Shown piece after piece: positions 22,396 through 64,000 of a stretch of 64,000 nt of DNA (the first letter of the stretch is position 1; each line of letters begins with the position of its first letter). A program made the translations under genes and the position numbers. Source of the DNA: Sedimenticola selenatireducens DSM 17993 (GTDB taxonomy: Bacteria > Pseudomonadota > Gammaproteobacteria > Chromatiales > Chromatiaceae); assembly GCF_000428045.1 (NCBI RefSeq), contig NZ_ATZE01000012.1, positions 122,410-186,409 on the forward strand. The letters run 5' to 3'. Under the pieces are notes generated by a model. The model was not told the DNA's origin, ran no database searches, and was given only the letters and a program-made list of their open reading frames with translations.

Positions 22396-22427
22396 AAAAA
22401 AAAAGCCCCGCCATCCGGCGGGGCTTT
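22396..22427 (-). terminator. Rho-independent terminator after the cold-shock gene
   Basis: AGCCCCGCC and GGCGGGGCT form a perfect 9-bp stem with a four-base loop. On the minus strand it is followed by a run of nine T residues, 30 bases beyond the cold-shock stop codon. Confidence 0.93.
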
Positions 22428-22456
22428 TCAAGGATGCCAGGCATCCTGATCCCGTT

Positions 22457-22660
22457 TTACTGGGCGACGACGTTGGTCGCGCTGGGGCCTTTCTGACCCT
22501 GCTCGACGTCGAAGGAGACGGTCTGGCCTTCAGCCAGTGACTTGAAGCCACCGCCCTGAATGGCGCTGTGATGAACAAATACGTCCTTGGAGCCATCGGT
22601 CGGGGTAATGAATCCGAAGCCTTTTTCGTCGCTGAACCACTTAACTGTGCCTGTAGCCAT
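22457..22660 (-). CDS. CspA-family cold-shock protein
   Basis: 67 residues, the standard length. [12 protein letters not shown] (RNP1) and DVFVHHSAI (RNP2) are intact. It binds single-stranded RNA or DNA and loosens structure. The ATG follows AGAGG at a suitable distance. A leader of about 160 bases is predicted from a perfect -10 box far upstream, and a strong terminator closes the unit, so it is a single-gene transcript. Which csp paralogue it is cannot be stated. Confidence 0.95.
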
Positions 22661-22827
22661 GTTGCTAAACCTCTGTAAAAATTAATCGTTGATATGCAGA
22701 CGCTTGCCAAGCGCTTACGGAAGAATCTGCCACGAACTGCGAGAGGATAACTGCCGAAAAACTACAAGTACACTGCAATGTAGCGCACTCTATTGAAAAC
22801 TCAATAAAAAAACAAGCGACTTTTTCT

Positions 22828-60260: not shown

Positions 60261-62090
60261 TTATATGTCATACATCATGGGCAGCAGCCAGGAGAGCGCC
60301 AACCAGACAATCAAGGTCAACGGAATGCCGACACGGACGAAATCATTAAACTTGTATCCCCCGGCATTCATCACCAGCAGGTTGGTCTTGTAGGCCATGG
60401 GGGTGGCGTAGCTCATGTTGGCGCCGAACAGTACCGCCAGCACGAAGGGTTCCGCGGGCAGGCCCAGTTGCTGCGCGATACTGACGGCAATGGGCGTACC
60501 AATCACGGCGGCGGCATTATTGGAGACGATATTGGTCAGTACCGCCATGACCAGCATCAGACCACTGAGCATCACGGTGGGTGAACTGCCGGCACTCACG
60601 CTGACAAAGAGCTGCGCCAGGTAGTGTGCGCCACCCGTCTTGGACAGCGCCATTCCCAGGGCAAGGCTGGCCACCACGATCAGGATCACCTGGGTGCTAA
60701 GCGCCTGCGCCGCATCTCGCCAACTCAGGCAGCGGGTGATTATCATCAGCAGGACGCCACAGGTGGCACTGATGGCGATAGGCAGAATACCGAAAGCCGC
60801 CACCACCACGATTGCCGCCATGATCAGCAGTGCCAGGGGCGCCCGCTTTGTCGTGGGGAGGTCGCTGGTGGCGTCGAGCACCAGCAACTCACCACTGCGC
60901 TTCAACTCCGCGATCCGCTCACGGCTGCCCTGCACCAGCAGCACATCACCCACGTTCAGGCGAACACTCCCCACCTCCTCCCGCAGCGTGCGGACAGTGG
61001 CGCCCGCCCGGTGCAGCGCCAGTGTTACCAACTGGTAGTAATCGGAAAAACGCAGGCGTGACAAGGTTGTGCCATCCAGCGGCGAGCCCTGGGTGACCAC
61101 AATCTCCGCCAACTGCTGATCCTCATCATGCAGCGGATGCTCCTCATCCACCCGCTTGTCATCGGTGTAAAGCTTTGCCCCCAGCACAGTCTCCATCTCC
61201 TTGAGATTGTCCGGTGTGTCCTTCACACTCAACAGGTCACCCGGTTTGATGACGACATCGGGCAAAGGGGTCAACACAACCCCGCCATTCCGGTGAATCT
61301 GTATGATCTTCAACGTCCGACCAACTTCTTCATTCGCCTCGGCCAGGGTTTTGCCGGCTGCGAAACTCTCCTCGTCCACATGCAGTTGTGCGGTGAAAAC
61401 ACGCGGCGAGGTATCCTCCATCAGCGCCTCGCGCCTGGGCAGCATACGTGGTGCGAGCAGCCATAAAAACAGGATGGCCAGACCACCGGCAATCGCTGCC
61501 GGAATAAAGAAATGAAACATGCTGAAGCGCGGCAGCCCCATATCGGATGCCACGGAGACCACCAGCAGATTGGTGGAGGTGCCGATGGTGGTGCTCATAC
61601 CGCCGACCAGCGTGGCAAAACCCATGGGCATGAGAATGCTCGATGCCGGCTGGTTGTTGCGCAGGGAAACACTGACCAGGATGGGCAGCAGCAGTACGAC
61701 TATGGGCACATTGTTCACAAAGGCGCTCAACAATGCACCCACCAGCAGAGTAATCAGCAACGACAGCATGGGACTGATCGACCACAACCGTGCAAGCTGA
61801 CGCCCCACCGGTTCCAGTGCGCCGGTCCGCACCAGCGCCTGCCCGGCAATCATCAGGGCACAAACGGCTACCAGTGCTTCATGGCCAAATCCGGAGAAAA
61901 AATCGATGGCATGGAGCTGCTCTCCATCGGCCATGTAGGGAAAAAGCTCAAACCCGGCAGTCAGCAGCACCAGCACCGCCAGACTGGAGGTCTCCAGCGG
62001 AATCCGTTCGCGGGTAAACAGGGCCAGGGCGACCACTACCAGGAGAAGCACAGCGAGGCCGTGCGTATCGGGCAATGCGGGTAGTTCCAT
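60261..62090 (-). CDS. SLC13-type sodium/anion permease with two TrkA-C domains
   Basis: 609 residues. About 11 membrane segments in two halves frame two cytoplasmic RCK/TrkA-C domains (about residues 215-385; VDEESFAAGKTLAEANEEVGRT and TQGSPLDGTTLSRLRF). The family signature appears as SAFVNNVPIVVLLLP and GGMSTTIGTSTNLLV, repeated as TNIVSNNAAAVIGTPIA and NMSYATPMAYKTNLLV. Relatives carry sulfate, citrate or dicarboxylates. With no neighbours to narrow it, sulfate or a dicarboxylate is a guess. Confidence 0.9.
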   Translation of the reverse strand: MELPALPDTHGLAVLLLVVVALALFTRERIPLETSSLAVLVLLTAGFELFPYMADGEQLHAIDFFSGFGHEALVAVCALMIAGQALVRTGALEPVGRQLARLWSISPMLSLLITLLVGALLSAFVNNVPIVVLLLPILVSVSLRNNQPASSILMPMGFATLVGGMSTTIGTSTNLLVVSVASDMGLPRFSMFHFFIPAAIAGGLAILFLWLLAPRMLPRREALMEDTSPRVFTAQLHVDEESFAAGKTLAEANEEVGRTLKIIQIHRNGGVVLTPLPDVVIKPGDLLSVKDTPDNLKEMETVLGAKLYTDDKRVDEEHPLHDEDQQLAEIVVTQGSPLDGTTLSRLRFSDYYQLVTLALHRAGATVRTLREEVGSVRLNVGDVLLVQGSRERIAELKRSGELLVLDATSDLPTTKRAPLALLIMAAIVVVAAFGILPIAISATCGVLLMIITRCLSWRDAAQALSTQVILIVVASLALGMALSKTGGAHYLAQLFVSVSAGSSPTVMLSGLMLVMAVLTNIVSNNAAAVIGTPIAVSIAQQLGLPAEPFVLAVLFGANMSYATPMAYKTNLLVMNAGGYKFNDFVRVGIPLTLIVWLALSWLLPMMYDI

Positions 62091-62218: not shown

Positions 62219-62824
62219 TTAGGGTCGGACAAACTTCTTTCGCGCACGCGCCACCTTGTCCCTGATAACACAGGCCTCGACATGATCATTAATCAACCCC
62301 ATGGCCTGCATAAAGGCGTATACGGTGGTCGGGCCGACAAACTTCCAGCCCATCTTTTTCAACGCCTTGGATAAAGCGACCGATTCATCCGACGTCGATG
62401 CGGTTTGCGGCTCCGCCAATTTATCGGCCTCGGGTTCATAACGCCAGAAAAAGGTTGCCAGGGATCCCTCCTGCTCTACCAGCTCCCGGGCACGTTTTGC
62501 GTTATTGATCACCGCCTCGATCTTACCGCGATGACGCACAATACCCGCGTCCTGCAGCAGGCGCTCCACATCCCGTTCGGTAAAGCGGGCGACCTTGTTG
62601 AAATCAAACTGCTGGAAGGCCTTGCGGAAATTCTCCCGCTTGGCCAGGATGGTGCGCCAGCTAAGCCCCGACTGAAAACCCTCCAGGCACAACTTTTCAA
62701 ACAGGCGCCTATCCTCATCCACCGGATAGCCCCATTCGTGATCATGATAATCCAGGAACTCCGGTGCAGCGCCACACCACTGACAACGGGGTTTCTTATC
62801 CGCCGCGATAAAAGGTTCGCTCAT
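62219..62824 (-). CDS. tag: DNA-3-methyladenine glycosylase I
   Basis: 201 residues from the Met at 62824 (MSEPFIAAD); an earlier in-frame start at 62857 lacks family support. The zinc-binding CQWC begins the domain, and YHDHEWGYPV, LEGFQSGLSWRTILAKRE, QDAGIVRHRGKIEAVINNA and GWKFVGPTTVYAFMQAMGLINDH follow as in E. coli Tag. It cuts 3-methyladenine from alkylated DNA. The second zinc ligand pair near the C-terminus is partly changed (VEACVIRDKVARAR has one Cys). Confidence 0.94.
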   Translation of the reverse strand: MSEPFIAADKKPRCQWCGAAPEFLDYHDHEWGYPVDEDRRLFEKLCLEGFQSGLSWRTILAKRENFRKAFQQFDFNKVARFTERDVERLLQDAGIVRHRGKIEAVINNAKRARELVEQEGSLATFFWRYEPEADKLAEPQTASTSDESVALSKALKKMGWKFVGPTTVYAFMQAMGLINDHVEACVIRDKVARARKKFVRP

Positions 62825-62951
62825 CTCTAATCCCTCATGTGAAACCGGTTTTACCAACAGGATACCCAGGCATCAATCCACCTGAATCATGGACTAAAAA
62901 TATTAGCGAAAAAATCGCTTTTGTCATTATTTAACTTCACCCTGTGCCGAC

Positions 62952-63383
62952 TTAGGCCTTCGGCCAAAGAATCATCTGGGTACAGCGGAACAACGCGATC
63001 TTCCGGCCAGTCGACTCATCCGATACAACGGCATCCCATACCTGGGTATTTTTTCCCAGATGCTGGGAAGTTGCGTGACAAACAATGCTTCCCTCCTTGA
63101 CCGTACCAAGGTAATTACTCTTCAACTCTATAGTAGTGAAGGATTCCGCCCCATCCGGCAAGTGCGCGATGGTGGCATAGCCACAGGTGGTGTCGGCAAG
63201 CGCCACCACACTTGCCGCGTGCAAGAAATTGTTGGGCGCAAAGTGCAGCTTTTGCACCGGCATACGACTGTGGAGGTTGTTGGCCGTCAGTTTCACCATC
63301 TGGATACCGAGGTACCCGGGCAAATACTCCGTTCCACGCTGGTTCAGTAGCTCAATCGAAACATCTTCTCGCAGTTTGCTCAT
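62952..63383 (-). CDS. PaaI-type hotdog thioesterase
   Basis: 143 residues. The hotdog pattern HFAPNNFLHAASVVALADTTCGYAT contains the HGG-like turn (here LHAAS with the catalytic Asp in ALADT) and TTIELKSNYLGTVKEGSI follows. It hydrolyses acyl-CoA thioesters; PaaI relatives act on phenylacetyl-CoA or other aromatic thioesters, but there is no proof of that here. Confidence 0.85.
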   Translation of the reverse strand: MSKLREDVSIELLNQRGTEYLPGYLGIQMVKLTANNLHSRMPVQKLHFAPNNFLHAASVVALADTTCGYATIAHLPDGAESFTTIELKSNYLGTVKEGSIVCHATSQHLGKNTQVWDAVVSDESTGRKIALFRCTQMILWPKA

Positions 63384-63738: not shown

Positions 63739-63822
63739 GGCTAACGCCGCCAGCACGCGCGGCTTTGCAGTGAAGGCGAAGCCGCAACGAAAAAGCCGTC
63801 GCCGTGCCTGGCCTTGTTAAGT
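63739..63822 (-). other. Integron attC recombination site
   Basis: On the minus strand the site begins ACTTAACAAGGCC and ends GGCGGCGTTAGCC. The outer TAAC/GTTA core pairs, then after three unpaired bases GCCA, GCACG, CG and CGGCTTT pair with the other arm. The left arm has three extra bases (a G within CCAGGCACG, a G and an A further in), the extrahelical bases that direct strand choice by the integrase. The loop is about 30 bases. The 84-base length and boundary sequences are typical for an attC. It begins at the stop codon of the HEPN gene, as expected for a gene cassette. Confidence 0.85.
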
Positions 63823-64000
63823 GCCAACTTGCTTGACCCAGTCTCTTATGAATATCCCCAAACGCTCGATATCACCCTTCTCTAGCACTCCGCTATGCAT
63901 AATGACATTTCTAGAGCGTTCTACAGCGTCAAATACGTTTGCAGCCCAATCAATCGACTGAATATGTGCCTCAAAATCATCCCAATTATTTCGCATAATA
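63817..64000 (-). CDS. HEPN-domain protein in an integron cassette (5' end outside window)
   Basis: The frame read leftward from the right edge ends at TAA 63817-63819, overlapping the attC. It encodes at least 59 residues from the ATG at 63996, but the frame stays open to the edge and the domain is incomplete at its start. The segment RNVIMHSG is the Rx4-6H motif of HEPN domains, followed by LEKGDIERLGIFIRDW, a usual last helix (compare Swt1/ApeA-like HEPN proteins). HEPN proteins with this motif are often RNases in toxin or defence systems. Whether an antitoxin partner is present lies outside the window. Confidence 0.7.
   Translation of the reverse strand, partial: IMRNNWDDFEAHIQSIDWAANVFDAVERSRNVIMHSGVLEKGDIERLGIFIRDWVKQVGT

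Follow-up and report, generated by a model that had tools for sequence, protein, structure and literature searches.

The right edge of the analysed stretch of Sedimenticola selenatireducens DSM 17993 DNA (the window; 64 kb, C3:122410-186409) carries a hairpin resembling an integron recombination site, which raises the question of what kind of cassette array it belongs to and where the corresponding integrase is encoded. The genome is assembled into 37 contigs (4.59 Mb), and contig C3 ends 1,744 bases past the window.

The site, designated attC1, is an 84-base hairpin (63739-63822, minus strand), which starts with ACTTAAC and finishes with GCGTTAGCC. In the 64-kb window it was matched by the covariance model R3 with 39.7 bits (E 5.7e-8), and the model found nothing else there at E values of up to 10. 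R3 was trained on 20 attC sites, attC1 excluded; however, part of these seeds was chosen via model R1, whose training contained attC1, which makes the test independent with respect to training but not entirely so with respect to the choice of seeds. Folding with DNA parameters placed three single-base bulges on one arm, as the initial annotation had proposed for the same 84 bases; in the lowest-energy fold the two outer cores are unpaired with each other. The stem is also visible as covariation among the 20 other sites: 82% of the cells are paired, compared with 66.8% after shuffling (equalled or exceeded in 0 of 500 shuffles) and 28.5-45.5% in slid-alignment controls. This region is an attC, i.e. 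a bulged hairpin with paired cores that matches the covariance model. Since a simple attC finder also picked up two attC-like sequences in a control segment of the window, we relied on the covariance model instead. At the genome level (150 of 1955 candidates scored), R3 gave at least eight matches at E≤0.5, including attC1 (E 4e-6), distributed over contigs C1, C3, C4, C20 and C34. Further attC sites were scored beyond position 64000. The initial annotation had named as evidence against itself the joint absence of an attC score, of other attCs and of an integrase within 20 kb to the right; attC sites are present, so this combination does not apply.

An open reading frame on the minus strand enters the window at 64000, and its TAA stop codon lies inside the first core of attC1 (ACTTAAC), as had been read from the letters. 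The window contains the 3′ end of this gene (63817..64000, minus strand; 60 of 194 codons), while the remainder is located beyond 64000 on the same contig, together with a DUF5343 gene. The full protein (194 aa) matches HEPN_Swt1 (1.7e-10). Its gene is the second of a two-gene cassette, overlapping by 4 bases the upstream gene, which encodes a 211-aa protein with a DUF5343 domain (4.2e-39). Both products match, over nearly their full length, the components of the PADLOC system PDC-M34: (i) M34A (DUF5343; 1.7e-78) and (ii) M34B (HEPN; 4.8e-79). The cassette therefore carries M34A and M34B together and encodes this candidate defence system. M34B was detected at E≤1e-20 in 6 of 369 genomes sampled from the class (our strain counted), and DUF5343 adjoins it in all six, the locus L038 being split over two pieces. 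HEPN ribonucleases have the motif R-x4-6-H; R-x4-H (R164, H169) is invariant in the six M34B proteins, our own included, and the protein is a predicted RNase. One of the five M34 loci of relatives (L041, genome G127) is flanked by an attC, located immediately before the two genes (E 8.2e-6), and by a TIR protein on the downstream side. The HEPN protein was found in 1 of 72,556 plasmid records, and the DUF5343 protein in none of 50,697 phage records. The expectation that the array may hold defence genes is thus upheld for a candidate system only, because HEPN plus DUF5343 match PDC-M34. In this pair the HEPN protein would act as the RNase effector, with DUF5343, encoded by the overlapping gene, either restraining or triggering it; the pair may protect against phages. 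PDC systems are presented, in the part of PMC12988326 that deals with them, as candidates from guilt-by-embedding, and are termed unvalidated. The literature searched contained no naming of PDC-M34.

On the window side of attC1, the array end is flanked by a thioesterase-family gene (4HBT; 62952..63383, minus strand; Pfam 5.7e-12), a methyladenine glycosylase (TagI-like) gene (62219..62857, minus strand; Pfam 4.3e-72) and a transporter-like gene (60261..62090, minus strand), presumably of the SLC13 type, which has orthologues in the genomes G002, G003 and G008 and served as a synteny anchor. Rfam, applied at gathering scores, returned a single match for the window, a cspA thermoregulator RNA (22398-22789).

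On the other side, a chromosomal cassette array does extend to the right of the window, as the initial annotation claimed: past the M34 pair, C3 contains a second attC, an HTH gene (HTH_3 8.1e-14) and a RelE-family toxin gene (TIGR02385 7.8e-11), and it terminates in a third attC core. A 668-bp stretch comprising an attC and the toxin-antitoxin cassette is identical at four contig ends, being terminal on C3 and C20, and initial on C4 and on the reverse of C1, so the continuation of the array had to be inferred. The simplest reading is that the genome contains two copies of this stretch, in which case C3 could run on into C4 or C1. Continuation into C4 would make the window array part of an ordinary chromosomal integron reaching the integrase beside mutY. 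C3 and C4 do overlap by exactly 668 bases in the right orientation, and C4 carries an integrase, an attI and attC sites; however, C20 and C1 also end in the same 668 bases, for which reason a simple unmerged join of C3 and C4 was rejected, and gene order in G003, G002 and G008 places C3 next to C1, and C20 next to C4. We regard the ordinary integron as improbable.

The synteny evidence is as follows. C1 contains two more attC sites, two cassette genes for which Pfam returned no match, and a copy of attI, followed by rhodanese and NarL genes; this copy shares 97.5% identity over 80 bases with the attI preceding the C4 integrase. In G003 (2 contigs), a single 20-kb stretch contains NarX-NarL-rhodanese genes, attC sites, an attI copy that adjoins rhodanese/NarL and, approximately 13 kb from this copy, the transporter orthologue (92% identity), while genes of our C20 are found beside the integrase array. 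The transporter and rhodanese genes are neighbours in G002 and G008. C1 is thus most likely the continuation of the window array, which would have no integrase, and C4 would pair with C20. A CALIN has two or more attC sites and no integrase nearby; with two attC sites on C3, two on C1 and an integrase only on C4, the array is a CALIN; given the C3-C1 join, it would not be a complete integron, in which an integrase heads the same array. In G002 the rhodanese-transporter junction is empty, and two attC matches lie on the opposite side of the transporter gene (C28; L090:121-1012).

The prediction of an integrase further to the right is therefore probably wrong. A search for intI did reveal one, located on C4 and probably not on the window array. 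It is the sole integron integrase found: two frames, meeting near model position 210, match TIGR02249 with 238.4 and 177.5 bits, compared with 84.7 bits or less elsewhere in the genome. This gene is split by a frameshift, and the enzyme may consequently be inactive. It adjoins mutY and yggX, a location shared by the integrases of G001, G002, G003 and G008; these four score above the family cut-off and have no internal stop. G006 contains attI arrays, yet no integrase match at E≤1e-40. A recombinase encoded on C29 was rejected as the missing integrase (75.7 and 55.7 bits, versus 238.4 and 177.5 for C4); we take this gene and its neighbours to be housekeeping genes. The integrases of the mutY locus have approximately 145 extra N-terminal residues before the SAM-like domain (L097:1755-3143 of S. 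hydrogenitrophicus SB48; L017:2148-3538 of our strain). Phage_int_SAM_4 (Pfam) matches such an integrase in two stretches, the best at 148-230, and of the 24 relatives in which an integrase was matched, 11 had open frames of 460-499 aa; no relevant report of an N-terminal extension of integron integrases was found in the literature searched.

We consider it likely that attC1 forms the distal end of a short chromosomal array that lacks an integrase and has its own attI-like landing site, and that this attI unit is dispersed in the genus. Read from its head, the array would comprise the rhodanese/NarL flank, the attI unit, a 91-aa gene, an attC, a 207-aa gene and an attC, followed on the distal side by the RelE-like toxin and HTH genes, an attC, the DUF5343 and HEPN genes, attC1, and the thioesterase, TagI and transporter genes.

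The dispersal of attI was evident from searches in which the C4 attI gave matches in five of six Sedimenticola genomes, and the G002 attI in G002, G008 and G003. The resulting set contains 27 copies from the six genomes, 5 integrase-linked and 22 integrase-less; it excludes the matches G001 C100 (E 0.029) and G006 C67 (28 bases). The C4 copy and its kin are attI sites, as they adjoin an integrase and cassettes are joined at their crossover core. The attI pattern was absent from viral contigs. Arrays are headed by integrase-less copies as well: 14 of the 22 have an attC match at E≤0.1, seven have none and one lies at a contig start. These 14 loci account for 28 attC matches, each of which has the expected strand and lies on the cassette side, from which the stretches were mostly fetched. 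When the model seeds (six of the 28 matches, plus one copy of a seed) are excluded, 12 of the 22 loci remain, several of them weak (E 0.01-0.1).

These data also bear on whether the 80-bp element might not be attI, but another small dispersed repeat that lies beside the integrase and the arrays by chance. The element is indeed repetitive and has a conserved tail, which is also found with a degenerate core or with none. Against this stand the copies located upstream of the integrase in G000 (our strain), G001, G002, G003 and G008, the array-side similarity, which stops at the AAC core, the joining point of the cassettes, and the uniform strand of the 28 attC matches. We judge a chance association to be very improbable.

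Several attI loci had further features. The third copy of our strain (G000 C34; L060:14842-18520) heads a TIR-domain gene (3.5e-10) and a gene whose 393-aa product resembles a PADLOC TIR effector (5e-7). The locus has two weak attC matches (E 0.014 and 0.11), and its genes are possibly further defence cassettes. Beside two G003 copies we found a 2,468-bp block (99.96% identical), whose interpretation as a cassette exchange was rejected, as its ORFs encode a tyrosine recombinase and a transposase. We take it to be IS91-like. This element lies at the crossover core of both attI copies (L042:11597-13638 and L065:15932-17973), and the core may be a favoured target. A 410-bp block common to the integrase array of G001 and an integrase-less array of G006 stops short of the first attC and was left unused.

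Integrase-less attI copies differ from the integrase-linked ones in what follows the core. A tail of approximately 135 bp is present in 15 of the 22, of types A and B, and absent from all five integrase-linked copies and from the short-form integrase loci of G002 and G008. For the tail consensus, seven of the 22 copies were excluded in advance, as their tails gave poor alignments, and five units found by the tail alone were added. A search with the tail identified 14 places in five of the six genomes and none in G003; six tail-found loci yielded one attC match (G008 C110, E 0.037), and G002 C24 yielded none. At G000:C10:123072-123178 the tail is present but no attI core can be recognised, which indicates that the tail and the core can part. 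The possibility that the tail is a leftover of short-form integrases was rejected, since the stretches upstream of these in G002 and G008 match no units. The tail sits where a cassette promoter is expected and may be one, a prediction made from the sequence; a promoter scan of the C1 unit gave one weak site against 0.4 expected. Rfam found nothing at the three attI-unit loci analysed (E≤0.1).

The tail is also relevant to the idea that integrase-less attI sites are dead relics, i.e. duplications of whole integrons that lost their integrase, with nothing now acting on the copies. The split integrase of our strain, G006 without an integrase match and the seven of 22 copies without an attC match are what would be expected of relics, and they weigh against the array having a functional landing site; moreover, the AAC crossover bases are missing from some cores. 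However, independent integrase losses would not yield one tail common to 15 copies and missing from the five integrase-linked ones, and the short-form integrase loci are likewise tail-less. The identical 668-bp cassette stretch, which occurs in two array contexts, also speaks against relics. We find this explanation rather unlikely, and prefer the reading in which the window array has a landing site of its own. The integrase encoded beside mutY-yggX would then recombine cassettes into the dispersed attI copies in trans, and integrase-less attI arrays would, judging from their sequences, be capture platforms served in this way.

Among the attI cores we distinguish type A (G000, G001, G003 and G006), type B (G002, G008 and three G003 copies) and type C (at the integrase-linked attI of G008, and also at G000 C35 and at G006 C55). 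Mean attI identity is higher within than between genomes in six of six cases, uncorrected for kinship and narrowly so in G003 (65.1 vs 61.8). Two cases suggest that the core may be replaced at a fixed locus: (i) the G003 copy 1432586 shares 94.9% identity with the integrase-linked attI of its own genome versus 62.0% with its G006 orthologue (orthology by flank), and (ii) the locus G001 C81 (strain SB48)/G006 C55 (strain SN1189), 92.1% identical over 1,228 bases, has a type-A core in one strain and a type-C core in the other, with a common tail and flank. Homogenisation within genomes would be harder to reconcile with the G003 copy 3767582 (87.3% to its G000 orthologue vs 81.0% to its own integrase-linked attI); the dispersed copies of G008, which differ in core type from its integrase-linked attI, likewise count against it. 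A Sedimenticola multi-site integron, in which units of attI core and tail are spread over the genome, each with its own array, one integrase acts in trans and cores are replaceable at a fixed locus to suit different integrases, is a proposal on which we are evenly divided.

If attI is dispersed in this manner, a captured cassette could be placed at the front of the array at several loci, and some CALINs would be landing sites, not debris. The dispersed copies form a natural family of attI variants outside class 1, which helps in learning what the integrase recognises. According to the sections of PMC9024848 concerned, attI sites outside class 1 are poorly described and undetected by IntegronFinder, and integrons typically have a single attI adjoining the integrase. 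Our literature search, covering titles and abstracts, with subscription papers mostly outside its scope, returned no report of dispersed attI copies.

Among known systems, the sedentary chromosomal integron corresponds to the mutY-yggX locus, where integrase, attI and array occupy a fixed position in five genomes of the genus, including our own; the window array differs in that it would lie, by the inferred join, at another locus and without an integrase. The CALIN, defined in the relevant passages of PMC9024848 and PMC12444791 as a cluster of attC sites lacking an integron integrase, and described in those of the latter as mobilisable in trans, resembles the window array in being a chromosomal attC array without an integrase; here, however, the array is headed by an attI-like site, one of several dispersed genomic copies. 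The attG sites (Loot et al. 2024, as cited in PMC12444791) are, in the account given there, genomic cassette insertion sites that are neither attC nor attI. They are alike in placing cassettes away from the main array, whereas the sites described in this study are near-copies of the integrase-linked attI. PDC-M34 is matched here in both components over nearly their full length, with the difference that it is housed inside one integron cassette; the relevant part of PMC12409362 already portrays integrons as stores of defence cassettes, and the M34 cassette is one more candidate beside the defence genes reported there. CALINs and defence cassettes are thus already known, and the new aspect is that of integrase-less arrays headed by dispersed copies of attI.
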